A stretch of 29,915 nucleotides of DNA from positions 1 to 29,915 of IMG/VR virus record IMGVR_UViG_3300034121_000175; one strand, 5' to 3'. The position numbers were made by a program, and so were the translations under genes. This DNA comes from a virus. Positions 3,908-29,915 of this stretch are shown in pieces. The notes beneath the pieces are model-generated. The model had not been told where the DNA came from. It ran no database searches and worked only from the letters and a program-made list of their open reading frames with translations. Position 1 is the first letter of the stretch. Every line of letters starts with the position of its first letter.

Positions 3908-3946
3908 TTAGTTTAGTTACATTCTAGAAACGTAACACTTATAACG

Positions 3947-3978
3947 ACCCTACCTTAATCGGTGGGGTTTTGTTTTTT
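3947..3978 (+). terminator. Intrinsic terminator after the tail-tube gene
   Basis: ACCCTACC (3947-3954) pairs with GGTGGGGT (3961-3968) over a six-base loop, followed by TTTGTTTTTT. Late element S2 begins right behind it. Confidence 0.9.
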
Positions 3979-3979
3979 G

Positions 3980-4009
3980 AACAAGCGCCTAAACTAAAAT
4001 AATATAGTT
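3980..4009 (+). promoter_or_regulatory. Late promoter-like element S2, upstream of the 114-residue protein and portal
   Basis: TAATATAGTT at 4000-4009 abuts the ATG at 4010. AAC at 3980-3982, inside GAACAA, is 17 bases upstream. Its position just after a terminator supports a transcription-start role over a purely translational one. Confidence 0.7.
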
Positions 4010-4354
4010 ATGATTTACATTGAAAAAGGACAAGTTAACACGTTTGCTTTGACGCTGTCAGAAGTTACAACGCTAGTAGACCCTTTTTATTTATTCGTGT
4101 TTGAAGACGAATTTAACACGGCTATAGACCCGATTCTTTGGGAGGGCGTAGACACGTCTAACTATCAATATAGATACAATCTATTTACAATGGAAGAAGG
4201 CGTCGACATAGACCTTTTAAAAGGGCAATACACGTACAAAGTGTACGAAAGTCCTACGGCAATAGACATAAACACGAACACAGAAGATTTAAACTTAATC
4301 GAAGAAGGGCGCATGGTAGTTAGCGGTGTCGCTGTTTCTTCTATATATGAATAA
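4010..4354 (+). CDS. Conserved structural-cluster protein of unknown role
   Basis: 114 residues, soluble and acidic, predicted mostly beta. The pattern MIYIEKGQVNTFALTLSE, then a YLFVF strand and a GQYTYKVYES segment, resembles a small protein I have seen in head-tail regions of flavobacterial phages, without an assigned function. Its stop overlaps the portal start (ATGAATAA, 4347-4354), so the two are probably translationally coupled. It could be a head-tail joining or decoration protein; that is inference from position between tail tube and portal. Confidence 0.7.
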   Translation: MIYIEKGQVNTFALTLSEVTTLVDPFYLFVFEDEFNTAIDPILWEGVDTSNYQYRYNLFTMEEGVDIDLLKGQYTYKVYESPTAIDINTNTEDLNLIEEGRMVVSGVAVSSIYE

Positions 4355-9109: not shown

Positions 9110-9142
9110 TTTGTTTAGATGAAAATATAATACATATCTTTG
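9110..9142 (+). promoter_or_regulatory. Early promoter, Bacteroidetes type
   Basis: TTTG at 9110-9113, 21 bases, then TATCTTTG at 9135-9142: an excellent match to the Bacteroidetes -33/-7 consensus. Transcription should begin about 9148, giving a short A-rich leader to the ATG at 9164. Confidence 0.88.
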
Positions 9143-10684: not shown

Positions 10685-10923
10685 AACAATGTTTTAAATG
10701 TCGTAGAATGTTAGATCTAAATGAATACACGGACAATAAAAGAGGCTACACCTTAAAAACTGACATGGGTAAAAACAGAGTTTGTAAAATATGTAACTTC
10801 GACAGCGCTGTTAAGAAAAAAAGTCTAGTATCTTTTAACTACGAACAAAAGAAATTTGAAGTAATTAATTTTAATAACATTGGTGAAGTAGGCGAATACT
10901 TCGAAACAAATAAACTGATATGA
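10681..10923 (+). CDS. Small zinc-ribbon-like protein
   Basis: 80 residues with two CxxC knuckles (C4/C7 and C35/C38) about 28 residues apart, enough for one structural zinc site. The second half is beta-rich (SFNYEQKKFEVINF). Possible DNA or protein contact role. It lies directly before the DnaA-like gene, overlapping it by four bases. Confidence 0.75.
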   Translation: MKQCFKCRRMLDLNEYTDNKRGYTLKTDMGKNRVCKICNFDSAVKKKSLVSFNYEQKKFEVINFNNIGEVGEYFETNKLI

Positions 10924-11315
10924 ATAATACAATAGAAAAAGTACATTACTACCTGGAACGTGACGGACTAAACGAAAAGACACGCAAACGCGAAATAGTA
11001 TATAAACGAGCCTATTTAATGCACGTACTACGCTGTCAAAACATGACATTTCACGAAATAGGACAAACATTTAACCGAGATCATGCGACAGCAATTTATC
11101 AATGCAATATGGTAAAGCGTTATTTACACGAATTAAAAGACGAAATATATATTAACTTAATTAGTGAATATTTAGAAGCCTTTGAAGGTGAAAAATACAA
11201 GCCAGAATACTATAATCTTACCGACGACGTGTTAAATTGTACCAGTACGTACGAACTTAAGTTGATAAAAGAACGAATCAAAGAAAATAAGTACGGAAAC
11301 AATGACACAGATTAA
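10920..11315 (+). CDS. DnaA domain-IV-like DNA-binding protein
   Basis: 131 residues. Residues about 28-72 follow the C-terminal DNA-binding domain of DnaA: a helix, then MTFHEIGQTFN and RDHATAIYQC (53-62), which corresponds to the RDHTTVLHA-type signature that contacts DnaA boxes. The AAA+ ATPase is absent, so it cannot act as a full initiator. It could recognise the phage origin, compete with host DnaA at its boxes, or act as a transcription factor. It ends the early operon and is followed by the structured region at 11316-11446. Confidence 0.75.
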   Translation: MNNTIEKVHYYLERDGLNEKTRKREIVYKRAYLMHVLRCQNMTFHEIGQTFNRDHATAIYQCNMVKRYLHELKDEIYINLISEYLEAFEGEKYKPEYYNLTDDVLNCTSTYELKLIKERIKENKYGNNDTD

Positions 11316-11334
11316 AGTAATATAGTTACATTTG
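11298..11334 (+). promoter_or_regulatory. Late promoter-like element S6 plus host-type -7 box
   Basis: TAATATAGTT at 11318-11327 with AAC at 11298-11300, 17 bases upstream. Overlapping it, TACATTTG (11327-11334) matches the Bacteroidetes TAnnTTTG box, though no TTG stands at -33. This is the only copy of the element not close to a coding start; what follows is the structured region. Confidence 0.55.
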
Positions 11335-11339
11335 TAAGC

Positions 11340-11427
11340 GTTCATCCGACATTATAAACGCAAGGTATTATTTAGCCATTTTAATGAACAAGAGGTCGGA
11401 TGCTTGGGATTTAAAGTGGCTTTTTTT
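11340..11427 (+). ncRNA. Candidate structured small RNA ending in a terminator
   Basis: CATCCGAC (11343-11350) pairs perfectly with GTCGGATG (11395-11402). A second helix, 11374-11384 with 11411-11421 (eleven pairs, one G-U), crosses the first, so both together make a pseudoknot. A third option, GTTCAT (11340-11345) with ATGAAC (11384-11389), competes with both. Seven T (11421-11427) follow. It could be a free RNA of about 90 bases driven by S6, or a leader-type switch for the replication genes at 11447. The pairing is seen; the function and 5' end are inferred. Confidence 0.5.
11374..11427 (+). terminator. Hairpin with T-run after the early operon
   Basis: AGCCATTTTAA (11374-11384) and TTAAAGTGGCT (11411-11421) form an eleven-pair stem over a 26-base loop, followed by a T-run. 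The large loop contains half of the competing helix, so termination may be conditional. Confidence 0.6.
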
Positions 11428-11446
11428 ATGCTGAAAAATTAACACA

Positions 11447-14946: not shown

Positions 14947-15348
14947 ATGGAAATTTGGAAAGATGTAATAGGTTACGAAGGTATTTACAAAGTGTCTAGT
15001 TTAGGACGTATTAAACGCATTTCAAAAAATCACCTATGCAATTTAAGGTATCAAGGTGAATACTATTTAAAACCACTAGACAACGGAAAAGGATATTTAA
15101 GAATGAAGCTATCAAATAACGGATCATCGAAACGTGTAATGTTACACAGAATAATAGCAGAAGCGTTTATAAACAATCCCGAAAACAAAAAGGTAATTAA
15201 TCACATTAATTGTGATAAAAAAGATAATCGTATTGAAAATTTAGAGTGGTGTAGTCAAAGTGAAAACGTTTTACATTCGGTTAAATTAGGTAGATGGACG
15301 CAAGGACGAAAAAAAATAAATAAAACTATTGCTTATATCAAAATATAA
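14947..15348 (+). CDS. Free-standing HNH homing endonuclease (NUMOD4-HNH)
   Basis: 133 residues. The NUMOD4 DNA-binding motif opens the protein (EIWKDVIGYEGIYKVSSLGR). The HNH_3 catalytic part follows: H67 in MLHRIIAEAF, NHINCDKKDNRIENLEW (85-101), then SENVLHS. There is no intron or intein near it, so it is free-standing. It interrupts the recombination module between ninG and erf, the usual sign of homing mobility. The -33 box of the erf promoter lies in its last codons. Confidence 0.9.
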   Translation: MEIWKDVIGYEGIYKVSSLGRIKRISKNHLCNLRYQGEYYLKPLDNGKGYLRMKLSNNGSSKRVMLHRIIAEAFINNPENKKVINHINCDKKDNRIENLEWCSQSENVLHSVKLGRWTQGRKKINKTIAYIKI

Positions 15349-15358
15349 ACTATCTTTG
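15329..15358 (+). promoter_or_regulatory. Host-type promoter for the recombination operon
   Basis: TTG at 15329-15331, 19 bases, TATCTTTG at 15351-15358. It fits the Bacteroidetes consensus and has the same -7 box as the early promoter. The start would be near 15364, leaving a short A-rich leader to the erf ATG at 15380. Confidence 0.87.
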
Positions 15359-15379: not shown

Positions 15380-15889
15380 ATGAAAAATTTATTTAAAGCG
15401 TTGGCAACATTCCAACAAGAAGTACCAGTGATCCACAAAGCGACACAAGGATACGGGTATTCGTATTCCGATTTACCTAAAATCTTTAGCGTTATCAATC
15501 CGTTACTAAAAAAACACGGACTAGGATTCACGCAGTTGATTAACGACACTAATTTAGTTACGTGTTTATTTCACGTAGAAAGTGGCGAAACAATCGAAAG
15601 CACTACGGCAATACCGCAGAACGTAGCGTTAAAAGGTATGAATGACTTTCAAGTTATGGGTTCTGCTATTACTTACGTACGTCGTTACGCTATCAGTTCA
15701 ATGTTAGGACTAGTAACCGACAAAGACACGGACGCTTCTGGCGAACAAGTTAAGAAATTACCTACTATAGACGCTAAACGTTTTCAAAGTGCTGTAGAAG
15801 CTATTAACGCGGGTAAGTATACACGCGAAGAACTCGAAAGTAAGTTCGAATTAACACAAGGTCAAACCGATTTAATTAACGCGCTATGA
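15380..15889 (+). CDS. erf: Erf-family single-strand annealing protein
   Basis: 169 residues. ERF superfamily signature: YGYSYSDLPKI (25-35), a hydrophobic core, and QVMGSAITYVRRYAISSMLG (91-110). These proteins coat single strands and anneal complementary ends, enabling genome circularisation and recombination. The 3' overlap with the exonuclease gene gives the standard annealase-exonuclease pair. The C-terminal 40 residues are a helical extension of unknown role. Confidence 0.9.
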   Translation: MKNLFKALATFQQEVPVIHKATQGYGYSYSDLPKIFSVINPLLKKHGLGFTQLINDTNLVTCLFHVESGETIESTTAIPQNVALKGMNDFQVMGSAITYVRRYAISSMLGLVTDKDTDASGEQVKKLPTIDAKRFQSAVEAINAGKYTREELESKFELTQGQTDLINAL

Positions 15890-17946: not shown

Positions 17947-18198
17947 ATGGAATACCTATATTTAATTCCCTTCGTTTGGTTTATCACAAACTTCGAACCT
18001 TTCCACGAAGTAATTGACCGCATTTTCATGAACTTACCACTAAACAAGTGGACTTTGGCTATTCATTCGGCTTTCGGTTGTCCTAAATGCGTTGGGTTCT
18101 GGTCTACGTTGGTTATATCTGGCAATTTCTTTACGGCTTGTCTAGTTAGTTTGTTATCTTATATACTTGACAAATGCTTACAGAGGCTAGAATACTAG
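17947..18198 (+). CDS. Small membrane protein with CPKC motif
   Basis: 83 residues with an N-terminal hydrophobic segment (LIPFVWFITNF), a central FGCPKCVGFW (C45, C48), and a C-terminal hydrophobic segment (about 52-74). Phage membrane proteins with a CxxC followed by a FW pair recur in Bacteroidetes phages; function unknown. First gene behind the putative operator; overlaps the next gene by 25 bases. Confidence 0.7.
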   Translation: MEYLYLIPFVWFITNFEPFHEVIDRIFMNLPLNKWTLAIHSAFGCPKCVGFWSTLVISGNFFTACLVSLLSYILDKCLQRLEY

Positions 18199-18377
18199 AA
18201 ATAAACGGAATACTAGCGGACATAAAGCCCGAGCGATTAGGTAAGATGCCACTACGCAAGCTTCAAGCTATCAAAGTAAAAGAAACGGGCATACGTGATA
18301 ACGAATGTTTTTGCAGACCCGACAAACGCCAAAAATGGTACGCACAATTTCTAGAATGGTATGAAGCAAACGCTTGA
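18174..18377 (+). CDS. Small protein before the sigma-like gene, unknown
   Basis: 67 residues, basic, predicted helical with a short CFC element (C46, C48) and the end KWYAQFLEWYEANA. No family recognised. Overlaps both neighbours (25 and 17 bases), so its translation is likely coupled to that of the sigma-like protein. Confidence 0.65.
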   Translation: MLTEARILEINGILADIKPERLGKMPLRKLQAIKVKETGIRDNECFCRPDKRQKWYAQFLEWYEANA

Positions 18378-18915
18378 CAAATACATAAGCGAACATTACG
18401 ACGAGGTTAGGAAATATACTAACCACTTTTTAAAGGCGTACAATAAAAAAAAGAACATAAACCTATCAATGTTAAACGCGGATACGTGCATTAATAACGC
18501 ATACCTTCATGTTTTAACAATAGACAAACAAGACGCGGACGAAAACACGGTAAAAAGCTATTTACTAAACACTATTAAGTGCCAAATTATCTGGGATAAA
18601 TCAATCAGTCACAAACAAGACGACTGCAACACTATAGAATACATAGGTAACGACGTACCCGACGACGACGAAGTAAGTAGAAAAATAGCAATAGAACAAA
18701 GATTTAACGATCAACGCGCATACATAGAAATATTCAGACGTCAAATTACTTGTCCTATCCAAAGGGTAACTTTTGAGTGCTATTACGACAAAGGTTTTAA
18801 CTCCGCACGTAGCCTATCTAAATACTTTGGGATATCTACGACGTCGGCGCATTACATGCTTAGGGAAATAAAACAAAAAATCCGCGAAATTCAATATAGT
18901 TATGAAAACAAATGA
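18361..18915 (+). CDS. Sigma-70/ECF-like factor, candidate late-gene activator
   Basis: 184 residues, the length of an ECF sigma factor. Residues 10-85 resemble region 2: a helical segment with DTCINNAYLHVL where ECF factors have the D-x-x-Q-E-x-F core helix, then TVKSYLLNTIKCQIIWDKS. An acidic linker (86-105) follows. Residues 133-177 resemble region 4: QRVTFECYYDKGFNSARSLSKYFGISTTSAHYMLREIKQKI, with the helix-turn-helix at about 149-168. Late element S7 overlaps its last codons and others precede the late units, so it probably directs host polymerase to them. The region-4 call is firmer than region 2; a plain HTH regulator is the alternative. Confidence 0.75.
   Translation: MKQTLDKYISEHYDEVRKYTNHFLKAYNKKKNINLSMLNADTCINNAYLHVLTIDKQDADENTVKSYLLNTIKCQIIWDKSISHKQDDCNTIEYIGNDVPDDDEVSRKIAIEQRFNDQRAYIEIFRRQITCPIQRVTFECYYDKGFNSARSLSKYFGISTTSAHYMLREIKQKIREIQYSYENK
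18872..18901 (+). promoter_or_regulatory. Late promoter-like element S7 (packaging unit)
   Basis: CAATATAGTT at 18892-18901 differs from the others only in its first base and abuts the ATG at 18902. AAC at 18872-18874 is 17 bases upstream. It lies inside the 3' end of the sigma-like gene and would drive the genes leading to terminase. Confidence 0.6.
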
Positions 18916-19066
18916 AATAGCAGACCAACTGGCTAGGTTAATCTTATTCTTAATAGGTGGGGTTATCTGTTTAGGCGGTTACGAAGTAGCCTTACGTATG
19001 TTGGGCGTACTAATTATAATTAAAGCAATAGGACACGAACTAAAACACGAACAAAATGAAAATTAA
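18902..19066 (+). CDS. Small membrane protein, 54 residues
   Basis: Starts directly at late element S7 and overlaps the sigma-like gene by 14 bases. A central hydrophobic stretch (LILFLIGGVICLGGY and on to LGVLIIIKAI) predicts one or two membrane passes. The stop overlaps the next ATG. Function unknown. Confidence 0.65.
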   Translation: MKTNEIADQLARLILFLIGGVICLGGYEVALRMLGVLIIIKAIGHELKHEQNEN

Positions 19067-19343
19067 AGATGAGTACAAAGGAAAAACGATTATCTGTTAT
19101 GATAGCGTACTGGGACAACGTAGAATAGAAGTCGACAAAATCGACCTTAAACGCTACAGCTTTTATACCAGTATGGGATTAGGCTACCTATTCGAAAAGG
19201 AAAACGTTACAATCAGTTACAAAGGAATCGAAGAAGACCAGGACGCAGACGTAAACGAACCCAAAGAAGTAGAACCAAAAGTAACTAGAGTTAAACCAGC
19301 TACAAAAACACGAAAACGTAAAACAAATGTCGCAACCAATTAA
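19056..19343 (+). CDS. Unknown protein, 95 residues, basic tail
   Basis: A beta-rich N-terminal domain (KIKDEYKGKTIICYDSVLGQ and on to residue 57) is followed by an acidic stretch and a very basic end (KPATKTRKRKT). Shaped like small phage proteins of the packaging region that may bind DNA; no specific family recognised. Confidence 0.65.
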   Translation: MKIKDEYKGKTIICYDSVLGQRRIEVDKIDLKRYSFYTSMGLGYLFEKENVTISYKGIEEDQDADVNEPKEVEPKVTRVKPATKTRKRKTNVATN

Positions 19344-19506
19344 AGGGGAAAAGAAACCCACGTTTATAAATAGATGTTTACAAGAACAAAAGGAAGCAAA
19401 GAACACGCTAACGGACAAAGAACACCTAGCAACGTGTAACCGAGTTTGGGAAACACACGCACGCGAAGCACTAAGCAACTACGTAAAGACGTTTCAAAAG
19501 AAATGA
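19327..19506 (+). CDS. Small protein upstream of terminase, 59 residues
   Basis: Reads MSQPIKGEKKPTFINRCLQE and continues with ATCNRVWE (37 Cys to 41 Trp). The pattern PxKGEKKPTF-x-x-x-C ... VCN-x-x-W/Y is one I associate with short proteins before terminase genes in Bacteroidetes phages, probably a small metal-binding or virion-associated family. It overlaps both neighbours. Confidence 0.65.
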   Translation: MSQPIKGEKKPTFINRCLQEQKEAKNTLTDKEHLATCNRVWETHAREALSNYVKTFQKK

Positions 19507-19694
19507 AGTTTTACCTACTAGACTACGGTAAAGAAATGATAAACGAAGGTAAGGTAATAACCGACTACCTAGATAAAATGCAATTTCACTACATAGCCTA
19601 CCTAACAAACGCGGACGGGTTGCTATGTCTTGAAGAAATAGACGAAGACGAATTTTTAAACCACTTCAAAAACACGAAACATGGCAAAGCCTAA
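19503..19694 (+). CDS. Small acidic protein, 63 residues, unknown
   Basis: I use the ATG at 19503, which overlaps the preceding stop (AAATGA); an upstream in-frame ATG at 19446 lies inside that gene. Predicted alpha/beta with an acidic cluster (EEIDEDEF). Overlaps the small terminase gene by 14 bases. Function unknown. Confidence 0.6.
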   Translation: MKFYLLDYGKEMINEGKVITDYLDKMQFHYIAYLTNADGLLCLEEIDEDEFLNHFKNTKHGKA

Positions 19695-20109
19695 ATACAT
19701 AAAGACACCAGAAGAACTATACCAACTATTCGAAAGCTATACACTAGACACAAAGCAAAGAGTAAGAACAATACCAAAGGCAACTAATAAAGGAGTGCTA
19801 TACGAAGAACACGTGCCACCTTTAACAATAGACGGTTTTAAAACCTACGCCAATAAACAAGGGTCGGATATTAACCGATATTGGTATAACGTAGACGGGA
19901 CACTCAACGACTATGTAAGTATCGTTACGCGCATTAAAGAAGAAATACGAAACGACCAGGTCGAAGGTGCGCTAGTCGGGCAATATCAACAGAACATAGT
20001 TGCACGTCTAAACAACCTAACCGAAAAGACGGACGTAACGACCAACGGCGAGGCTATCAATGAAATTAAAATCTCGATAATTAGACCCGACACGAAACAA
20101 CTAGACTAA
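19681..20109 (+). CDS. terS: Terminase small subunit (P22 gp3-like)
   Basis: 142 residues. It resembles the gp3-type DNA-packaging proteins: TPEELYQLFESYTLDTK at the start, VPPLTIDGFKTYANKQGSD near 45-63, a helical middle, and a C-terminal tail (EIKISIIRPD) ending in a basic-acidic mix. It would recognise the packaging site and load TerL. The stop overlaps the TerL ATG (TAATG), the usual arrangement. Confidence 0.8.
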   Translation: MAKPKYIKTPEELYQLFESYTLDTKQRVRTIPKATNKGVLYEEHVPPLTIDGFKTYANKQGSDINRYWYNVDGTLNDYVSIVTRIKEEIRNDQVEGALVGQYQQNIVARLNNLTEKTDVTTNGEAINEIKISIIRPDTKQLD

Positions 20110-21260
20110 TGGAACTCAAGTCGACTATTGTATTTGAAAGGAATTACGACGCGCTTTACAATAACGAGGCGCGTTTTATCATTAACGAGGGTGGTAGCCG
20201 TTCAAGTAAGACCTACAGCCTATGCCAACTGATTCTAGTTTATTGCCTACAGAATAGAGGCGTTGTCGTTTCAATCATACGTAAGACGTTCCCAGCGTTA
20301 CGCGCTACAGCTATGCGTGACTTTTTAGAAGTTCTTAAAGATGCGGGTATCTACGAAAAGAGTTCACATAACATGAGTGAACACATCTACAGCTTTAACA
20401 ATGGATCAATAGTGGAATTCTTTTCAGTCGATGACGAACAAAAAATAAGGGGTCGCAAGCGCCACCTTGCATGGTGTAACGAAGCTAACGAACTTTATTA
20501 CGACGACTTCACACAGTTGAACATGCGTACTGAATCCAAACTCATTTTTGATTACAACCCGTCCGATTCTAACTCATGGCTTTACGACCTACCAAAAAAC
20601 GAAAGCATATTAATTAAGTCCACGTATAAAGACAACCCGTTCTTACCCGAAAGCATAAAGACACAGATAGAAGACCTCAAACGAACCGACGAGGCACTAT
20701 ATCAAATATACGCGCTAGGTGAAAAGGCTATCAGTAAAAGTAATATCTATTCAAACTGGACATTCTTACCGCATAGACCCGCTAGGTTTACTCAGTTCAT
20801 ATACGGAATCGATTTCGGGTATAACCACCCCACCGCGTTAGTAAGAATATACTGGCATGAAAAAGATGTCTTTATCGAACCCGTAATTTACGAAAGCTAC
20901 CTAACGACGTCAGACCTACTAGAACGCTTTGAACAACTTAACATTGAAAAGAACGCCGACATCATAGCTGACTACGCGAGACCCGAAATAATAGCCGAAC
21001 TAAACAACAACGGTTACAACGTTATTAACGCGAACAAGTCCGTTAAAAAGGGTATCGACAACGTAAAGACTTTCGGAATCTTTTGCATGGAACACGAAGG
21101 CTTAAAGAAGGAATACCAGAATTATAAATGGAAAAAGATAGGAGACCAAATACTAGACGAACCCGTGAAACTTTGGGACGATGCTATGGACGCGACCAGG
21201 TACGCGACCGCCTACATTAAAGAACAATACTTTACAGACGACGCTTACTACGCGTTCTAA
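20109..21260 (+). CDS. terL: Terminase large subunit
   Basis: 383 residues. ATPase domain: Walker A EGGSRSSKT (27-35), Walker B RHLAWCNEANE (118-128) with the catalytic Glu. Nuclease domain: GIDFGYNHP with D235, DIIADYARPE with D288, and LWDDAMDATRY with D357/D358. This is the Terminase_3/PBSX-like class. Length is slightly short for the class but all active-site elements are present. It packages DNA into the head through the portal. Confidence 0.95.
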   Translation: MELKSTIVFERNYDALYNNEARFIINEGGSRSSKTYSLCQLILVYCLQNRGVVVSIIRKTFPALRATAMRDFLEVLKDAGIYEKSSHNMSEHIYSFNNGSIVEFFSVDDEQKIRGRKRHLAWCNEANELYYDDFTQLNMRTESKLIFDYNPSDSNSWLYDLPKNESILIKSTYKDNPFLPESIKTQIEDLKRTDEALYQIYALGEKAISKSNIYSNWTFLPHRPARFTQFIYGIDFGYNHPTALVRIYWHEKDVFIEPVIYESYLTTSDLLERFEQLNIEKNADIIADYARPEIIAELNNNGYNVINANKSVKKGIDNVKTFGIFCMEHEGLKKEYQNYKWKKIGDQILDEPVKLWDDAMDATRYATAYIKEQYFTDDAYYAF

Positions 21261-21289
21261 CCTAAACAAAGACCGAAAATAATATAGTT
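21259..21289 (+). promoter_or_regulatory. Late promoter-like element S3 (tail unit)
   Basis: TAATATAGTT at 21280-21289 abuts the ATG at 21290. AAC at 21259-21261 is 18 bases upstream; a second AAC (21265-21267) is only 12 bases away. Confidence 0.65.
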
Positions 21290-22759
21290 ATGGCACAATC
21301 GATAATAGCAAAACCGCAAGCGTTCACACCCGCTTACAACCCAGTCAAGTACATAATTGACAGCACGAATAAAAACCTAACTGGATTTAGATACATTTTC
21401 CAAGTGTACAACGGTGCAACCCTCAAAGGAACTTTTAAAGTATTACCTACCTTTTCGACGGGGTACGGCGAACTTGACCTATCTAAGTTCTTAAGTTCTT
21501 ACGTAAGCTGGGACTTTGACCCGAACGTAACGCAAGACCTTGACGCTGTAAATAGCTTTTACAATTACGACGTTAACGTCGGCGAAGAATACTTGTACGA
21601 ACTTAGTTACACGTCAGCTTTAACGGCAAGCGGTACGAATACACGAATTAACGTTACTAACATTTTCCAAGTAGGTGACCAGATTAATATCCTACAAGAC
21701 GACTTAGGCGTAGCCAATCCATTACTTGAAGGCTTGCACACGGTTATTGCCGTGTCGGGTTCTTGGATAGACGTTAACGTACCTTTTAGTTCAATCACAA
21801 ACGTAAACATAAACGGAACTATTAACTACGCGGACAACCGCAAGGTAGTAACGTACGACATAACCGAAATAGTAAGTAAGAAGGTTTTTAACGGGGCTTT
21901 CACTTGGGTTGACTTCAAAGTATACAATGAGAATACTTACACGCTAAACGGCGTAACAAAGGAATTCTTAACGAACCAACCTACAACGGATTTCTACGCA
22001 ACGTTAGGCCAGGATATATGGTTAAACGGACGCGCACGAATAGGTAAAAAAATGTACTTTCAAAATGACGACGGACACATATACAGCAAAGACATAGTAA
22101 ATAATAACTCTATAGTTTCGGTTGCTGTAGGTCCTAACAATTACGGCGTAGTTACTCCTATTACTGGAATCTTACCAATGGTTAAACCCGATACAACTTA
22201 CTACGATTTCTGGTATTACGACGGCGCACAGTTTTCGCAGAAGTACCGCGTTAACATAGACAGACGCGTACAAATTAACGAGTATCACATTTGCTTTTTA
22301 GATCGTAAAGGTTCGTTCTCATCTTTTGCCTTTCAGCTTAAAAGTTACGAACGTGGCGAAGTTACACGCGACGAGTTTAACAAAGACGTACAAGGCTACG
22401 TTAGCGGTGGCGAGTGGAGTTACAATTACGAAGAATTCGGGTTTAATACTTTCAACATAAACGTAACAAAGACCCTCGAACTAAATACGAACTGGATGAC
22501 TCAAAAAATGTCGGACTATTTCCAAGAACTTATAACAAGCCCTCAAACGTTTTTAAAGTTAGTTCAATACGTAACAACAGAAGAAGGCGAACTAGTTCTA
22601 GATGAAGACGGTTGTCCCGTGTTAGTGTCTGAAAGTACCGCATACGTGCCGTGTATCGTTCAAACAAACAGCTTTGAAGTATTCAAACAGCGAAACAAGA
22701 ACCTAATCAAACAAAGCATAGTAGTTAAATTAGCAAACAACGACAACGTAAATGGTTAA
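21290..22759 (+). CDS. Tail structural protein (distal tail or baseplate type)
   Basis: 489 residues, beta-rich, no membrane segment. The C-terminal half has the run FLDRKGSFSSFAFQLKSYER, VQGYVSGG, LELNTNWM and YFQELITSP, which I recognise from a conserved tail protein of Bacteroidetes siphophages. Exact role (distal tail, baseplate or tail-associated) is not settled. Overlaps the 904-residue gene by eight bases. Confidence 0.75.
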   Translation: MAQSIIAKPQAFTPAYNPVKYIIDSTNKNLTGFRYIFQVYNGATLKGTFKVLPTFSTGYGELDLSKFLSSYVSWDFDPNVTQDLDAVNSFYNYDVNVGEEYLYELSYTSALTASGTNTRINVTNIFQVGDQINILQDDLGVANPLLEGLHTVIAVSGSWIDVNVPFSSITNVNINGTINYADNRKVVTYDITEIVSKKVFNGAFTWVDFKVYNENTYTLNGVTKEFLTNQPTTDFYATLGQDIWLNGRARIGKKMYFQNDDGHIYSKDIVNNNSIVSVAVGPNNYGVVTPITGILPMVKPDTTYYDFWYYDGAQFSQKYRVNIDRRVQINEYHICFLDRKGSFSSFAFQLKSYERGEVTRDEFNKDVQGYVSGGEWSYNYEEFGFNTFNINVTKTLELNTNWMTQKMSDYFQELITSPQTFLKLVQYVTTEEGELVLDEDGCPVLVSESTAYVPCIVQTNSFEVFKQRNKNLIKQSIVVKLANNDNVNG

Positions 22760-25466
22760 CATAGTAAAAATAATACTTGAAACGGGGGTACTTGAAGTAA
22801 GACAAGACGTAGCTTTCCCGATTAACTTTTCTGTAGGTGACATTCGCGACATATCAAAGCGTTCGGGTACGTTCTCAAAGACTATCGTACTTGCGGGTAC
22901 GGATAACAATAACCAACTATTAAACCACTACTACGACGTAAATATCGAAGCGGGTACGTTTAACGTTGCGACCTTAACTAAATGTCAAGTCGTACAAAAT
23001 AACGTAGTGATTTTAGATAATGCTTTGTTACAGCTAATCAATGTAAACAAACAGCAACTAACGGACGCACACGAACAAATTGTTAATTACGAAGTCGTAA
23101 TAAAGGACACGAAAGCCGAACTATTTACAACAATGAATAGTAAGGAATTAAACGACCTAGATTTTAGCGACCTAGACCACTTTCAAACGACTAGCTACAT
23201 TCAATCGACCTTTACAAACACGGTTGCCAACGGCTTTAAATATCTATTACCATACGCGACAAACGGCAATCAATATTTCATGTCACAGATGAAGCCCGCT
23301 ATATACGCTAAAACTTACTTTGATAGGATATTTAACACGGCTGGTTTTACTTACCAATGGGATGACTTAGTAGCGTCTAGGTTCGACAAGTTATTAATAC
23401 CTTACAACGGTGACGAAAACGCTGTAGATTGGAACGATTATAAAGTAGTCGCAAATACTAATTTTGAAACCGCATACGTTCAAGCATTTCCAGGCAATTT
23501 TACCCCGTGGGCTGAAGAAGTAAACGGATGGACAGAAACGCTAGACCTTCAAGGTATCTTTAATCCTACGACTGGATATTACACCGCGCCAACGGACACC
23601 GACCCCGCTAGTTCACAATCTTACGAATTTAAAATTAACGTAGAATTTGAATACATATTCGAAAATCACGGCGCGTTACCCGCTAGAGTTTTCCAATATA
23701 CGAACAATACATACATTCCAGTTACGGGAGTTTTCGCGCCTTACTTTAAGGCTATGTCACCAGCTAACACGGGAACGGCTGCATACGTAACGACTCAAAC
23801 AATAACTGATTATATACCTTCTGGTACTACCACTTTTGGGGCGTATGCAAATACAATGATAACTAGCCCGACTACGTTTATATCTAGTGGCGACATTTTA
23901 AAACTTGTCGTAGGTATACAGTCAAACATGAACACGGGGGCTTACGCTTGGAAAACATCTGCTACTAGTGCGGGCGCACTTGTTGACGTTAACATTAAAG
24001 TAAATAACATTACTTTAGAAATATTACCGAATAGTAACACGCCCGTAATAGGTGGGTTCTTAAATATGAACGAATACGTACCGCAAAAGATTAAACAAAG
24101 CGACTTCGTTAAGTCTATATTTCAGATGTACAATTTGTTTGCTGACGTCGACCCGTCACAACCGAATAACATTATCTTAAGACACCGCGACGAATACTAC
24201 GACAACGGACAAGAAAAAGATTGGACATATAAGCTAGCAAAAGACCGCGAACAAAATTTAGAGTTCTTACCCGACGTTTCTAGCAAGCGAGTAATATTAA
24301 CTTACAAACAAGACACGGACGACCCGAACGTTTTATTTTTCCAAAGCACAGACGAAATTTACGGACAACAAGAATACATATTTGATAGCGAGTATGTCCG
24401 CGACATTGACGTAAAAGAATTAATCTTTAGTCCTACGCCTATAGCTAAAACAACTTTCGGGGCTATCGTTCCAATGATTAACGGACAAACACCTAAAACA
24501 AATATTAGAATCCTTTACGACGGCGGTCAACAGCCTTGCGGGTCATGGAATCTTATTAGTAGCGGTGTCGCTGGAACTTATGGTATTTTAGAATATCCAG
24601 CTATTACCCACTTTGACGACGCGAACACGCCTACTTTCGACTTGAACTTTGGAACGTGTGACTTTTACTATTATAACCCCGCAACGTTAACTAACAATAC
24701 GCTTTTCAATCTTTACTGGCGTCGAACAATTAATCAAATTAACGTCGGGAAAATGTTAACGGCTTACTTCAAACTAGACGAAGGCGACATACATAGCTTA
24801 AAGCTTAACGACAAAATCCGTATCGACAACAGCTGGTGGAATATTAACAAGGTAATAGATTACAACGCTAACATAAACCAATTAACAAAGGTCGAACTTA
24901 TAAGCGTAGATACTGAAATAGACCTGGCACGCTTTCAAACGAACACGGGTAACCCCGCACCTTCGACAACTACTAACACGGCTTTAATGTCTGTTAGGTC
25001 TTCTGCTATGAATTCGGGTAACGTTATACTTGAAGGTTCAAACGTAGCGGTATACGGCACGCGTAACAGCATAGCTCAAAACGTTAGGGGTGTCGTAATA
25101 GGTGACGACCAAACACTAAACGAAGACGGATTAATAACACCAAGAATTAACGGCGTAGCTACTCAAATAGGCGGTTATATTGCTAACCTTACCCAAACGG
25201 GAACGGGCGCACCTACAGCACTAGTTTTCACGGGTCAACTTATTACATGGACTAGAACAAGCGCTGGCGACTATTTAGGCACACCCGTAACGCCTTACGA
25301 CTTTTCAACTACCTATGTAATGATTAACAACGTAGAACATGACTTCTTAACTAGTGCGTACATAAACACGGACGGAAACGTAGTTATTGTTACTTGTCGA
25401 ACTAACGGACATTCACACCAAGACGACGTTTTAAATAATACTACCTTAGAAATTCGAACCTACTAG
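22752..25466 (+). CDS. Large tail/baseplate protein
   Basis: 904 residues. The N-terminus (FPINFSVGDIRDISKRSGTF, then SKTIVLAGTDNNNQLLNHYY) is the conserved opening of a large Bacteroidetes phage tail protein. The middle contains a lectin-like or jelly-roll-like beta region (about 290-410). The end (residues about 735-904) is Ser/Thr/Asn-rich and looks like a receptor-contacting or fibre-attachment part. By size and place it may be the tail hub. No peptidoglycan-hydrolase motif is visible. Confidence 0.75.
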   Translation: MVNIVKIILETGVLEVRQDVAFPINFSVGDIRDISKRSGTFSKTIVLAGTDNNNQLLNHYYDVNIEAGTFNVATLTKCQVVQNNVVILDNALLQLINVNKQQLTDAHEQIVNYEVVIKDTKAELFTTMNSKELNDLDFSDLDHFQTTSYIQSTFTNTVANGFKYLLPYATNGNQYFMSQMKPAIYAKTYFDRIFNTAGFTYQWDDLVASRFDKLLIPYNGDENAVDWNDYKVVANTNFETAYVQAFPGNFTPWAEEVNGWTETLDLQGIFNPTTGYYTAPTDTDPASSQSYEFKINVEFEYIFENHGALPARVFQYTNNTYIPVTGVFAPYFKAMSPANTGTAAYVTTQTITDYIPSGTTTFGAYANTMITSPTTFISSGDILKLVVGIQSNMNTGAYAWKTSATSAGALVDVNIKVNNITLEILPNSNTPVIGGFLNMNEYVPQKIKQSDFVKSIFQMYNLFADVDPSQPNNIILRHRDEYYDNGQEKDWTYKLAKDREQNLEFLPDVSSKRVILTYKQDTDDPNVLFFQSTDEIYGQQEYIFDSEYVRDIDVKELIFSPTPIAKTTFGAIVPMINGQTPKTNIRILYDGGQQPCGSWNLISSGVAGTYGILEYPAITHFDDANTPTFDLNFGTCDFYYYNPATLTNNTLFNLYWRRTINQINVGKMLTAYFKLDEGDIHSLKLNDKIRIDNSWWNINKVIDYNANINQLTKVELISVDTEIDLARFQTNTGNPAPSTTTNTALMSVRSSAMNSGNVILEGSNVAVYGTRNSIAQNVRGVVIGDDQTLNEDGLITPRINGVATQIGGYIANLTQTGTGAPTALVFTGQLITWTRTSAGDYLGTPVTPYDFSTTYVMINNVEHDFLTSAYINTDGNVVIVTCRTNGHSHQDDVLNNTTLEIRTY

Positions 25467-25470
25467 AAAA

Positions 25471-25480
25471 TAATATAGTT
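25471..25480 (+). promoter_or_regulatory. Late promoter-like element S4 (tape-measure unit)
   Basis: TAATATAGTT at 25471-25480 abuts the ATG at 25481 in a 14-base gap between genes. The only AAC nearby (25457-25459) is 11 bases upstream, unlike the other copies. Confidence 0.6.
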
Positions 25481-27586
25481 ATGAATGAAGTAGAGATACC
25501 ATTAAAACTAACGGGCGTCGGTTCAATGAAAGCCGAACTACGAAGCCTAAAAGCTGAATTAGCAAACGCCACCGACCCCGCACAAATGGACGCACTAGCC
25601 CGCAAAGCTGGTGAACTATCCGATAGAATAAAAGACGCTAACGATCAAGTTAACGTGTTTGCGTCGGGTTCTAAATTCGAACAAGTTAGTAACGGGTTGG
25701 GCGGTATTAAAGATAGTTTAATGTCTTTGGACTTTGAAGAAGCTAGCCAAAAGTCGCAAGCCTTTGCAAAGAATCTAGGCAAACTTAATCAAGCCGACAT
25801 TAGCGGGGCTATTAAAGGCATTACTGGAACGGTAAAAAGTCTAGGTGGCGCGTTTATGAAGTTAGGCGTACAGATATTAATGAACCCTATATTTTTACTA
25901 GTCGTAGTTATCACTGCTATCGTAGTTGCTATAGGTGTTTTCCTAAATAAAATAGGCGTACTTGACAAAGTTTTAGAGGTTTTAATGTATCCTATTAATT
26001 TACTTATTCAAGGCTTTAAAGACTTAACGGATTGGCTAGGTTTAACATCTTTTGAAGCAGAAGACAACGCGGAAAGAATTAAAAAAGCTAACGAAGAAAT
26101 AATAGCTTCAAGTAACAAAAGAACCGAAGCGGTCGGGGCTATGTATGATTTCGAAATTGAAAAGGCTAAAATAGCTGGTAAAGAAACGTCAAAACTAGAG
26201 TTAAACAAGTCGAAAGCGTTAAGTAACGAAGCTAAATTAAGACGTGACAGACAAGTAAAAGAATTACAAGCGTTAAATAAAATAGCAAACGAAGACAATG
26301 CGGAGCAACGCAAGAAGTTAAAGGAATCTATTAACGCTGAAAACATTACTATCCGTCAAGGTTCACGTGAGCGTATCTTAATTTTATTACGTGAAACAGC
26401 GAAGAAAAAAGAGGAGTACAAAAAGCAACGCGACGACGCTAAAAAAGTAGCTGACGACGAAGCTAGCGACGCAAAGAAACAAGCAGAAGAACGAGCAAAA
26501 GAAGCACAAGCTAGATACAAGGAAAAAAAGGACGCACTTAAAAAAGCAACCGAAGACATTCAAAAAGAAATAGCAACGGCTAACAAATTTATTACTGATT
26601 CTAGTAAGACGCAACAGCAACGCGAAGTAGACGACGTTAAGTTAAAATATACCGCGTTAATTGCCGAAGCTACTAAATACGGACAAGACACAAAGGCTTT
26701 CGCACAAGCTCAACAAATAGAACTAGACGCTATTAATAAAGCGTTTACAGACGCTGAAATTGAAAAGCAAAAGAAACTAGACGAAGAAAAACTAGCTAAC
26801 GAGAAACGCGTTGCAGACGGAATAAAAGCGTTTAAAGAATCGGAGTTGCAAAAAGAAGAAGAACTAGACGAATTAATTTACCAGTCTAAACTTACCGCAC
26901 AGCAAAAAGAACTTGAAGCGAACAAATACAAGTACGACGAATTACTAGCACAATACGAACGCTACGGAAAAGACACTACGGATTTAATAGCACAGCAAAA
27001 AGAAGAAGAAGATAAAATAAACGCGAAGTATACACTAGCTGAAATCGAAAAAGCTAAACAAGTTCGAGATACTAAAATTCAATTTGCTAGCGACATAGCT
27101 AACGGAATCGGTGCGATTGGTGAAATGTTCATAAAAGACCAAAAGAAACTAGAGAAATTCAATAAAGCACAAGCGTTAGTTCAAATAGGAATAGATACAG
27201 CGAAGGCAATTAGTTCCCTTGTCGCTATGTCACAAGCTAACCCAGCGAACGCGGTTACGGGTGGGGGTGCGGGTATTGCTCAATTTGCTAGCGGTATCGT
27301 TCAAATTATAACCAATGTAGCGAAAGCAAAAGCTTTACTTTCGAACCCTTCTGGCACACCTTCGCCAAATACGGGTGGGGGTGGCGGTAACAACTCCGAA
27401 ACTTCTGTTAGTATGGCTACGCCAGCGGTTCAAATGTTTGGACAAGGTAACAACTTAAATAGTCAAGGCGGTACTAAATCCGCTAACGCTAATCAAAACA
27501 TGGTAGTAACAGCAATCGTAAGCGAAAGCGACATAACCAACACACAAAACAAAATTAGTAAACTTCAAAAATCTGCTGAACTATGA
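25481..27586 (+). CDS. Tape measure protein
   Basis: 701 residues. A helical N-terminus is followed by hydrophobic membrane-type segments (about 136-156 and 165-180), long charged coiled coils (about 195-560), then an Ala-rich helical part and a Gly-rich linker (about 630-650). This layout and the SGAIKGITGTVKSLGGAFMK segment (108-127) are typical of Bacteroidetes tape measures. At the usual 1.5 angstroms per residue it predicts a tail near 105 nm. No lysozyme or peptidase domain is visible. Confidence 0.9.
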   Translation: MNEVEIPLKLTGVGSMKAELRSLKAELANATDPAQMDALARKAGELSDRIKDANDQVNVFASGSKFEQVSNGLGGIKDSLMSLDFEEASQKSQAFAKNLGKLNQADISGAIKGITGTVKSLGGAFMKLGVQILMNPIFLLVVVITAIVVAIGVFLNKIGVLDKVLEVLMYPINLLIQGFKDLTDWLGLTSFEAEDNAERIKKANEEIIASSNKRTEAVGAMYDFEIEKAKIAGKETSKLELNKSKALSNEAKLRRDRQVKELQALNKIANEDNAEQRKKLKESINAENITIRQGSRERILILLRETAKKKEEYKKQRDDAKKVADDEASDAKKQAEERAKEAQARYKEKKDALKKATEDIQKEIATANKFITDSSKTQQQREVDDVKLKYTALIAEATKYGQDTKAFAQAQQIELDAINKAFTDAEIEKQKKLDEEKLANEKRVADGIKAFKESELQKEEELDELIYQSKLTAQQKELEANKYKYDELLAQYERYGKDTTDLIAQQKEEEDKINAKYTLAEIEKAKQVRDTKIQFASDIANGIGAIGEMFIKDQKKLEKFNKAQALVQIGIDTAKAISSLVAMSQANPANAVTGGGAGIAQFASGIVQIITNVAKAKALLSNPSGTPSPNTGGGGGNNSETSVSMATPAVQMFGQGNNLNSQGGTKSANANQNMVVTAIVSESDITNTQNKISKLQKSAEL

Positions 27587-28032
27587 CAAGTTACCAAGCC
27601 TTAATAAACGAAATAACGGCGTTTTATGATAACCACGTTCAAGTAATGAAGGTAGGGTCTGACTTCAAAGAACAAATGTTTAATTTCGCTACCAAAGACG
27701 AAAAATATCCGATTATCTATATAGTTCCTATCAGTGCCGTACCTACCGAAAACACGAACGATTTTAGTTTAGAAATATATTGCTTTGATATAATCCAAAA
27801 AGACCGCGCAAATATTAACGTTATCCTTTCAGATTGCCAGCAAATTCTTTACGACCTTTACACGTACTTTATTAACTCAACTAATTACGCCTTTGACGTG
27901 GTGGACATTCCAAGCTTTACGCCTTTGAACAACGACTTGTTAGACTATTGCGCGGGTTGGGTAATGACTGCTACATATTCAGTAAACAACTGGACTGATT
28001 GCGCTGTCCCACTTAAACAAATAGAGAATTAA
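27583..28032 (+). CDS. Tail completion/terminator-like protein
   Basis: 149 residues. The patterns MTSYQALINEITAFYDNHVQ, YPIIYIVPISA, SLEIYCFDIIQKDRANINVI and GWVMTATYSVNNWTDCAVPL are ones I associate with a conserved protein of flavobacterial phages. The alpha/beta layout with a terminal strand pair resembles siphophage tail terminator proteins that cap the tail tube. ATGA overlap with the tape measure gene. Confidence 0.7.
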   Translation: MTSYQALINEITAFYDNHVQVMKVGSDFKEQMFNFATKDEKYPIIYIVPISAVPTENTNDFSLEIYCFDIIQKDRANINVILSDCQQILYDLYTYFINSTNYAFDVVDIPSFTPLNNDLLDYCAGWVMTATYSVNNWTDCAVPLKQIEN

Positions 28033-28045
28033 AAATAATATAGTT
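28016..28045 (+). promoter_or_regulatory. Late promoter-like element S5 (fibre unit)
   Basis: TAATATAGTT at 28036-28045 with AAC at 28016-28018, 17 bases upstream. Here the ATG (28059) is 13 bases downstream, which argues that the element is not simply a start-codon context. Confidence 0.65.
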
Positions 28046-28058
28046 AAACACGTAAACA

Positions 28059-28358
28059 ATGAGTAGTAATTTATTAGGCGAGTTAGTCGCTAACAACGGT
28101 ACATATTTTTTAAATGTTGGTGCAAGATACGTGGGTAATGTAGATCAAGTTATAGTTCGTGGAAATGGTATAACTGATATTGAATTATTTATAACTATTG
28201 ATGGTGAATTATTAGAAGTTACTGAAGATTATTTAGGTGATTTACGTTTACCAGATGGATTAAGAATAACTCCAAAGGGTGACGATGTATTTACAAATGT
28301 TAGATGTAATGATTCGGAAACTCCAGGCGTAGGTCTTGAATTAGTTTTGTCTGCGTAA
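28059..28358 (+). CDS. Small beta-rich protein upstream of the fibre gene
   Basis: 99 residues, acidic, all-beta prediction with GNGITDIELFITIDGELLEV in the centre and two cysteines. Its codons are much richer in A/T than the neighbouring tail genes, with ACG and GCG nearly absent, which suggests separate origin. It may be a fibre chaperone, a decoration protein or a fibre part. One-base overlap with the fibre gene. Confidence 0.65.
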   Translation: MSSNLLGELVANNGTYFLNVGARYVGNVDQVIVRGNGITDIELFITIDGELLEVTEDYLGDLRLPDGLRITPKGDDVFTNVRCNDSETPGVGLELVLSA

Positions 28359-29257
28359 TGGCTACCAGTATTAAAATATCACAACTACCAGCAAAGGGCG
28401 CGAACCTTGAAGCTACTGACTTACTAGAAGTTTCTGAGTTTAACGGCACTGGTTACGTTTCAAAATCTATTACGGGTCAAGAAATTATCGACGCTGTCGC
28501 TGGTTCTGGCGTGACTGATGTCACTGCATCAGCTCCATTGGCCTCAAGCGGTGGCACTACGCCCGATATTTCAATCCCACAAGCGGACGCGGGTAGTGAT
28601 GGATATTTAAGTTCAACTGACTATATCAGCTTCACCAATAAACAAGATGCCTTAGTAAGCGGTACTAATATCAAAACAATCAACGGGAGTTCTGTTTTAG
28701 GTAGTGGTGATTTGGTTGTAAGTGGTGGTGGTGCGAGTGGTATTCATAGTTTTGTAAAACCTCAAACTGGAGATTCAACAAGTGCCTCAATTAACGCTGG
28801 AGCATTAAGTACAATAGCTATCTCAAACAATAGATTGTACGCCAATCCATTTATACCAGTTCAATCAATTACTTGTTCATCTCTATATGTGAGCTGTTCA
28901 ACTTCACAAGCAAGTTCATTAGGAAGGATATTAATTTACTCAGATTTAAATGGACTTCCAAATACAAAACTTTATGAAAGTGCAAACTTAGACCTATCAG
29001 TAACGGGTATAAAAACGGCAACAACAACTTTTACTTTTACTGCGGGAACTACTTATTGGTTATCTTTTCATGGTTCGGGGACTGCAAGTATTCATTCAAT
29101 AAGTGTCGGAAATGTAATACCATTAAGAATAAGTTCAATTTCAGTTAACTCACTTTATATTGCAACAACTGCTCCAGCGTTTGGCTCTGCTCCTTCACCT
29201 TTTGGTGCGGTTAGTGGGACAAATACAACAGTACCTTTTATCGGAATAACTTTATAA
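28358..29257 (+). CDS. Tail fibre / receptor-binding protein
   Basis: 299 residues. The N-terminal virion-attachment part (SIKISQLPAKGANLEATDLL, then SKSITGQEIIDAV) is a common anchor of Bacteroidetes phage fibres. INGSSVLGSGDLVVSGGG (109-126) is the repeat-like linker frequent in fibres. Residues 127-299 form a Ser/Thr-rich beta domain, probably the host-binding tip. Codon use changes at about residue 127, from mixed to A/T-rich, so the tip looks exchanged. The fibre decides host range. Confidence 0.8.
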   Translation: MATSIKISQLPAKGANLEATDLLEVSEFNGTGYVSKSITGQEIIDAVAGSGVTDVTASAPLASSGGTTPDISIPQADAGSDGYLSSTDYISFTNKQDALVSGTNIKTINGSSVLGSGDLVVSGGGASGIHSFVKPQTGDSTSASINAGALSTIAISNNRLYANPFIPVQSITCSSLYVSCSTSQASSLGRILIYSDLNGLPNTKLYESANLDLSVTGIKTATTTFTFTAGTTYWLSFHGSGTASIHSISVGNVIPLRISSISVNSLYIATTAPAFGSAPSPFGAVSGTNTTVPFIGITL

Positions 29258-29415: not shown

Positions 29416-29849
29416 TGGCTAGATACGCAAACAACGGAATTTTCAACGTCAAATACAAGACACGTAACAAAGTTGCGCAGACCTTGCGTAAAATCATTCT
29501 AGAAGAAAACCTAATAGATACTACAGCCCTTTACGATTCGATTAGAATTAACGCAAAGATACCCGCACTTGGTGAACTAGAAATACAGATACTAGCTATG
29601 TACTATTTTGGTTTCTTAAATAACGGAACTATTAACATGGCGCCCTTTGATCTATGCGCTAAACTTACAGCACGTTTAAACGCAGAAGGTACGACCGCAG
29701 AAATTTACAGCCAGTACACAGAATGGATGACAGAACGTTATCCTATCTTACAAGTCGCTAAAATTCTAGGTGATAAAAAGAAAATCGTTTATACATTTGA
29801 ACCAATCGGTGGCGAATTTAGCGCGGGCTTAACCTTTCGGGGCTTCTAA
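29415..29849 (+). CDS. Unknown tail-region protein, 144 residues
   Basis: Soluble alpha/beta protein (MARYANNGIFNVKYKTRNKV at the start, then ALYDSIRINAKI and AMYYFGFLNNG). The DSIRI plus YYFGFLNNG pattern resembles tail-completion or HK97-gp10-like proteins, in which a short beta hairpin precedes an aromatic helix; not certain. Its 3' end overlaps the convergent minus-strand gene by 21 bases across the contig join. Confidence 0.75.
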   Translation: MARYANNGIFNVKYKTRNKVAQTLRKIILEENLIDTTALYDSIRINAKIPALGELEIQILAMYYFGFLNNGTINMAPFDLCAKLTARLNAEGTTAEIYSQYTEWMTERYPILQVAKILGDKKKIVYTFEPIGGEFSAGLTFRGF

Positions 29850-29915
29850 ATAGCCCATTTCCTTACGCATAGCTAACATATTAAAGACAAAGATTAACGG
29901 CAACTCGCCGACTTC
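29789..29915. repeat. Terminal direct repeat, right copy (contig overlap)
   Basis: Right copy of the 127-base repeat, identical to bases 1-127. Removing one copy leaves 29,788 unique bases. Confidence 0.97.
29829..29915 (-). CDS. 3' fragment of the 260-residue minus-strand protein
   Basis: Duplicated end of the gene at 41-823, present because of the 127-base overlap. It is cut by the end of the window and is not a second gene. Confidence 0.95.
   Translation of the reverse strand, partial: EVGELPLIFVFNMLAMRKEMGYLEAPKG

Follow-up and report, generated by a model that had tools for sequence, protein, structure and literature searches.

What switches on the late genes of the virus recorded as IMGVR_UViG_3300034121_000175? 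The question is raised by two features of this record (positions 1 to 29,915, the whole 29,915-nucleotide stretch that we analysed and call the window): a short AT-rich word, TAATATAGTTA, that recurs at the start of late units, and a gene for a sigma-like protein at the end of the early block. A preliminary description had joined the two into a late promoter read by a phage-encoded sigma factor. Phage late sigma factors are a known principle. Judged from sequence comparison, the element is almost certainly a promoter, and a phage ECF-like sigma factor is likely to drive through it a late regulon, probably of mostly leaderless mRNAs. This sigma family, its promoter and the way in which that promoter is fused to start codons appear new: they are undescribed in the collections and literature searched, and searches of the literature on ECF-type phage late sigmas and on sigma promoters of Flavobacterium phages returned nothing relevant.

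A two-part element fused to late start codons

Exact copies of TAATATAGTTA lie on the plus strand of the window at 1379, 4000, 11318, 21280, 25471 and 28036, and a seventh plus-strand copy, CAATATAGTTA at 18892, differs from it by one mismatch. The minus strand of the window holds no exact copy. With up to one mismatch allowed, the window contains 10 matches against 2.4 expected, of which the three further matches (9602 and 14416 on the minus strand, 15550 on the plus strand) are coding background; the earlier count of seven copies, all on the plus strand and far above chance, is thereby confirmed. So is the report of an AAC triplet 16-18 bases upstream in six of the seven, at exactly 17 in four: the gap is 16 at 1379, 17 at 4000, 11318, 18892 and 28036, and 18 at 21280, and the triplet is absent at 25471. 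For the two-part word AAC + 16-18 bases + [TC]AATAT[ATG]GTTA, the plus strand has six occurrences and the minus strand none, with an expectation of 0.013 per strand under a first-order Markov model. Fusion of the element to start codons is a feature that the preliminary description did not contain. The final A of the motif doubles as the A of a late-gene ATG in five of the seven copies (1379, 4000, 18892, 21280 and 25471).

We infer late timing from gene content and order, and designate six plus-strand copies as putative late promoters. S1 (18872-18902) has its AAC at 18872-18874, a gap of 17 and CAATATAGTTA at 18892-18902, fused to the ATG at 18902; it lies inside the sigma gene, at its 3′ end, as had been claimed for one copy. 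S2 (21259-21290; AAC at 21259-21261, gap 18) carries TAATATAGTTA fused to the ATG at 21290 and serves a 489-amino-acid protein after the large terminase. S3 (25471-25481) consists of the -10 part only, fused to the ATG at 25481 of the tape-measure gene. S4 (28016-28046; gap 17) has TAATATAGTTA with its ATG at 28059, 13 bases downstream, unlike its orthologues, in which the motif mostly adjoins the ATG. S5 (1360-1389; gap 16) is fused to the ATG at 1389 of a protease-like head gene, and S6 (3980-4010; gap 17) to the ATG at 4010. One copy had been said to stand directly behind a terminator, and a terminator-like hairpin with a T-tract (3946-3969, plus strand) does directly precede S6. The claim that nearly all copies sit at the start of late units has its exception in the remaining copy, S7 (11298-11328, plus strand; gap 17), whose TAATATAGTTA at 11318 overlaps a host-type box, TACATTTG (11327-11334); it lies in the early region, 119 bases upstream of an open reading frame, and precedes a structured RNA.

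An ECF-like sigma factor at the end of the early block

The last gene of the early block (18361-18915, plus strand) encodes a protein of 184 amino acids, which we examined with NCBIfam profiles, AlphaFold2 and Foldseek. Residues 5-176 match the NCBIfam family sigma70-ECF (TIGR02937; E = 3.8e-5) weakly, below the curated cut-off, and 20 of 44 homologues match it too (best E 9.9e-7). An AlphaFold2 model built from the 44 homologues has a mean predicted local distance difference test score of 80, with helices at 2-90 and 104-182 and a low-confidence linker at about 81-101. The model thus has the make-up of an ECF factor, in that it consists of two helical domains (predicted regions 2 and 4) and a linker, with no other regions. 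Foldseek searches with it against PDB and BFVD return mostly ECF and other sigma factors, many at probability 0.9-1.0; among the viral models the hits are phage sigma-70/ECF proteins, four of them at E < 0.001, and region 4 alone aligns to solved region-4 structures with a target template modelling score of about 0.6. A fold unlike sigma regions 2 and 4 had been named beforehand as a reason to abandon the idea, and the fold search does match sigma factors. We file the protein as ECF-like, on profile and model, and not as a proven ECF member.

Pfam and PHROGs searches gave no name for the protein, and a profile search of PDB with it found nothing; a single-sequence search of PDB returned unrelated proteins only. 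In the isolated-phage collection there was no credible homologue of the sigma-like protein, and none of the 489-amino-acid structural protein.

The element in related genomes

Homologues of the sigma-like protein were found in IMG/VR at 48 loci in one search and in 388 and 338 confirmed stretches in two others. In all 12 larger relatives examined, the corresponding late genes again carry TAATAT[A/T/G]GTTATG, without exception on the late strand; a few ATGs in these genomes match 9-10 of the 10 upstream bases, with a clear gap to the remaining ATGs, and none on the opposite strand reaches 9 of 10. The first count of AAC was biased by loci that had been fetched with AAC in the search pattern, and we recounted without them, using sites from loci fetched by protein similarity only and made non-redundant at 70% identity (n = 38). 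AAC stands at a gap of exactly 17 in 24 of these 38 sites and at 16-18 in 27; other gaps mostly occur in 0-3 sites, and a gap of 12 in six.

The fusion to the start codon recurs as well. Among 159 distinct two-part sites, the distance from the last A of the motif to the ATG is 0 in 133, and the other distances are 2 (two sites), 6 (seven), 11 (nine), 13 and 14 (one each) and about 120 (three). Sites with an offset ATG retain both boxes, and whole clades have the ATG 6 or 11 bases further on with the AAC gap of 17 kept.

A pattern scan of IMG/VR for AAC-N17-TAATATAGTTATG, made with no protein input, returned at least 120 stretches, 114 of which encode proteins of this phage group. In all 23 pattern-scan stretches with a large terminase and more than 3 kilobases (kb) upstream, the sigma gene lies 0.75-1.7 kb upstream. 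Relatives with the element and no sigma gene, which the preliminary description had said would speak against it, were not seen among these 23 judged loci. Muminvirus MN812206, a genome outside the group, lacks both the element and any annotated sigma; relatives with terminase identity between about 32% and about 70% were not found, and a sigma-less close relative is thus not among the comparisons.

The promoter at the tail end (class 4 sites) also stays in place where the tail gene behind the tape measure is swapped for an unrelated one. Since unrelated tail-end genes (window 28036-29257; MSSNLLGEL, MATSIKIS, MNLTQKIS, MAIYNQSW and xxxWWGDWR types) follow the same promoter in different relatives, it marks an exchange point.

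Constraint on the in-gene copy and a set-wide shift of the motif

The bases of S1 are read as sigma codons, in a different frame from the ATG that opens the next gene. Over a set of 131 distinct sigma genes, synonymous diversity is zero at codon 171 in the -35 box (AAA) and at the -10 box codons 178 (CAA or GAA), 179 (TAT) and 181 (TAT); the average for 173 codons is 0.44, and most of those lying between the boxes vary. Codon 180 encodes Ser, Cys, Arg or Lys, and this residue changes with the promoter variant. Judged by this pattern, the in-gene copy is under constraint at the DNA level.

The motif also changes as a set. The late sites of a deep clade, whose sigma proteins are about 46-52% identical to that of the window, use TAATATAGGTA with AAC at a gap of 17, and one genome with 42% sigma identity (L177) has CAATATAAGTA at three sites, all with AAC at a gap of 17. 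The variant in the sigma gene equals the variant at the other copies 71 times (48 GG, 23 GT), along a series GTT to GGT to AGT; the mismatches are two GG-GT pairs and one GA-GG pair, with two chance coding hits of another form set aside. The sigma tree separates the two motif forms with support of 99/98.

Alternative readings of the element

These observations support the proposal of a sigma-type promoter with a phage ECF-like sigma through the orthologous late genes, the set-wide shift, the 17-base spacing and the co-occurrence of element and gene. Several findings pull the other way. The profile score of the sigma-like protein, 23.4 bits, is below the curated NCBIfam cut-off of 42.9 bits, and Pfam gives a weak helix-turn-helix match alone. 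The predicted template modelling score of the model is 0.43, so that it does not predict how the two domains are arranged with respect to each other, and no Foldseek match in PDB has an E below 0.001. At the promoters, S3 has no AAC at a gap of 16-18, and the tape-measure copy is a regular exception in relatives; S2 has AAT instead of AAC in several clades, and S1 in one. The motif shift amounts to one or two deep events, and another factor that changes with the clade could account for it. Finally, the usual spacing in Flavobacterium johnsoniae and T4, taken up below, would by analogy have transcription begin 2-3 bases 3′ of the motif's A, within the ATG or immediately behind it.

The promoters could be real and yet be read by a host alternative sigma, or by the host polymerase with another phage activator, the sigma-like protein acting elsewhere. 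That the phage protein recognises the element is something that we infer from sequence, a candidate for another activator exists in the DnaA-C-domain protein (10920-11315), which is widespread (44 of 49 relatives), and the variant TAATATTG is one specified position away from the host box TAnnTTTG. The element's -10 part likewise begins with TA and has G at its eighth position, as in the Bacteroidota primary promoter (TTTG/TAnnTTTG). The late sites nevertheless depart from that primary (sigma A) form, with AAC in place of TTTG at -35 and no TTTG in the -10 part, and the phage's early genes keep the host-type box. The element is also unlike the ECF-type motif of Flavobacterium psychrophilum, which has a CGT box (PMC9723704). 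The sigma gene accompanies the element in every judged locus, and the change in the promoter set falls at the division seen in the sigma tree. On this evidence we consider a reader other than the phage protein unlikely, and recognition of the element by the phage sigma likely.

Two further proposals would deny the element its role as a promoter. That TAATATAGTTATG is a translation-initiation signal, either a start-codon context or a ribosome-binding word, would suit the high share of sites in which the motif adjoins the ATG and the lack of Shine-Dalgarno sites in Bacteroidota mRNAs (PMC6847099). Against it, clades with the ATG 6 or 11 bases off keep the motif and the AAC gap of 17, S4 of the window stands 13 bases from its ATG, and the offsets of 2, 6, 11, 13 and 14 exclude a pure ribosome signal. 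In addition, translation is not known to involve an AAC box at a set distance of 17 bases, and the start context of F. johnsoniae prefers A at -3 (PMC6847099), where the element has G. The translation-only proposal is rejected on the offset copies and we give it very little weight. If a phage repressor or some other DNA-binding protein had operators that overlap gene starts, these would equally appear as a conserved DNA word there; here the two blocks at a fixed 17-base spacing have -35/-10 geometry and a single orientation relative to the gene and lack dyad symmetry, and no further promoter-like box was seen to recur at the late units, which makes operators highly improbable.

A model for late transcription and its start site

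Under the promoter reading that we favour, the host sigma would read the early genes through TTTG...TAnnTTTG promoters, and a diverged ECF-like sigma would be produced at the end of the early operon. This protein would redirect host RNA polymerase to late promoters composed of a -35 core (A/G)AAC(A), a spacer of 17 (16-18) and a -10 box TAATATAGTTA, or TAATATAGGTA in the sister clade. Six such promoters would serve the packaging, head, tape-measure and tail units.

Transcription probably begins at the motif's last A, the base that opens the ATG in most copies. A start at or 5′ of this base is also suggested by the distribution of distances to the ATG, since with a later one most late messages would lose their start codon; these messages are on balance likely to be leaderless. 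In F. johnsoniae, 4-5 bases usually separate TAnnTTTG from the start (PMC6847099), and the T4 late promoter word spans -13 to -6 (PMC1524935). The F. johnsoniae spacing conflicts with a start at or 5′ of the motif's A. We see about even chances that this is a sigma family with its promoter built into the start codon, through which a whole late regulon would be transcribed without leaders and the phage would alter transcription and the mode of translation initiation together, in one step.

Leaderless messages make up 5.5% of the mapped mRNAs of F. psychrophilum (PMC9723704). If the late messages are leaderless, these phages would offer a route to the study of leaderless translation in Bacteroidota, where such mRNAs are rare. 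The system would also be a late sigma regulon in a group that has no isolate in the phage collection searched. Its hundreds of metagenomic members would show how a sigma factor and the whole promoter set change together, and the series TAATATAGTTA, TAATATAGGTA and CAATATAAGTA, with matching sigmas, would be a natural test of how a sigma reads the bases beside the -10 box. The promoter is in addition a dependable marker by which such phages can be found and annotated.

Comparison with known late-promoter systems

One of the closest parallels is T4, in which gp55 likewise acts as a phage sigma at an AT-rich word, TATAAATA, before late genes. In T4 relatives a diverged gp55 (Aeh1) pairs with a diverged late promoter (PMC1524935), the same pattern as the set-wide shift described here. 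T4 differs in using the short word alone, with help from gp33 and gp45, whereas the present system would pair an ECF-like protein of two domains with a promoter that has AAC at -35, 17 bases away, and that is fused to the ATG. Homologues of gp33 and gp45 were not noticed, and no search aimed at them was made.

ECF sigmas are alike in size, in fold matches and in the AAC core of the -35 element, which the phage protein would read. The profile match to them is full-length, with a score below the curated cut-off. They differ in that TAATATAG replaces a CGTC-like -10 box (the region is TAATAT[A/T/G]G across sites), and in that a phage gene is involved, with no recognised anti-sigma. The late promoters of AR9 and phiKZ (AACA-N6-TA/G; TATG) are likewise phage-specific late words, with AACA in AR9 (PMC5312081); they differ in their spacing and in being read by phage multisubunit RNA polymerases, and no phage RNA polymerase was noticed here.

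Genome, host and early promoters

The group consists of uncultivated phages, most likely of Bacteroidota, with genomes of about 30 kb. The terminase has its best matches, at about 32% identity, in phages of Bacteroides, Parabacteroides and Flavobacterium, and the early promoters are of the Bacteroidota type. A search of a genome collection returned one contig, labelled as a bacterial metagenome-assembled genome; it is 29.6 kb long and phage-like, and the collection therefore gives no host identity. The window has an identical 127-base direct repeat at 1-127 and 29789-29915, and a repeat of the same 127-base length occurs in a second genome (G008). It is probably an assembly overlap of a circular map and not biology, and the window is probably a complete circular assembly of about 29.8 kb.

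Host-type TTTG...TAnnTTTG promoters stand at early genes, with leaders of about 20-38 bases. One, TTTG-N21-TATCTTTG (9110-9142, plus strand), precedes the first early gene (9164), and the early operon of most relatives has TTTG-N19-TATATTTG; another, TTG-N19-TATCTTTG (15329-15358, plus strand), stands in front of the gene at 15380. Two small plus-strand genes (17947-18377; 83 and 67 amino acids), present in all 49 relatives tested, lie immediately ahead of the sigma gene, and the second of them overlaps its start. Family searches gave no convincing match for either product, and they could be candidates for a partner or an anti-sigma of the sigma factor.

Structured RNAs and a host-type box in a divergent gap

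Behind S7 lies a structured RNA of about 100 bases (11335-11432, plus strand) with a hairpin, a U-tract and an 8-bp pseudoknot from the hairpin loop into a terminator hairpin. Over 18 sequences, pairing holds in 98.4% of cells, both sides have changed in 19 of 27 pairs, and the covariation of 0.69 compares with 0.06-0.09 for slid structures; the RNA has no match in Rfam. In most relatives a host-type box, TATATTTG, stands alone before it, and the late element is added in the window and a few others. Ten loci (L065, L050, L103, L042, L084, L078, L022, L025, L009 and L060) carry a second RNA class at the same place, in which a hairpin surrounds the loop word xGCAG and the complement of the loop word lies within the terminator hairpin. 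Several of its members have a third copy of the loop word beside the following ATG, as if two pairings compete.

Two minus-strand genes (41-1369) lie among the late genes, with a host-type box TATATTTG at 1362-1369 on the minus strand. The conservation of GAACAAATATA near S5 is partly due to this box, which shares the divergent gap with S5.

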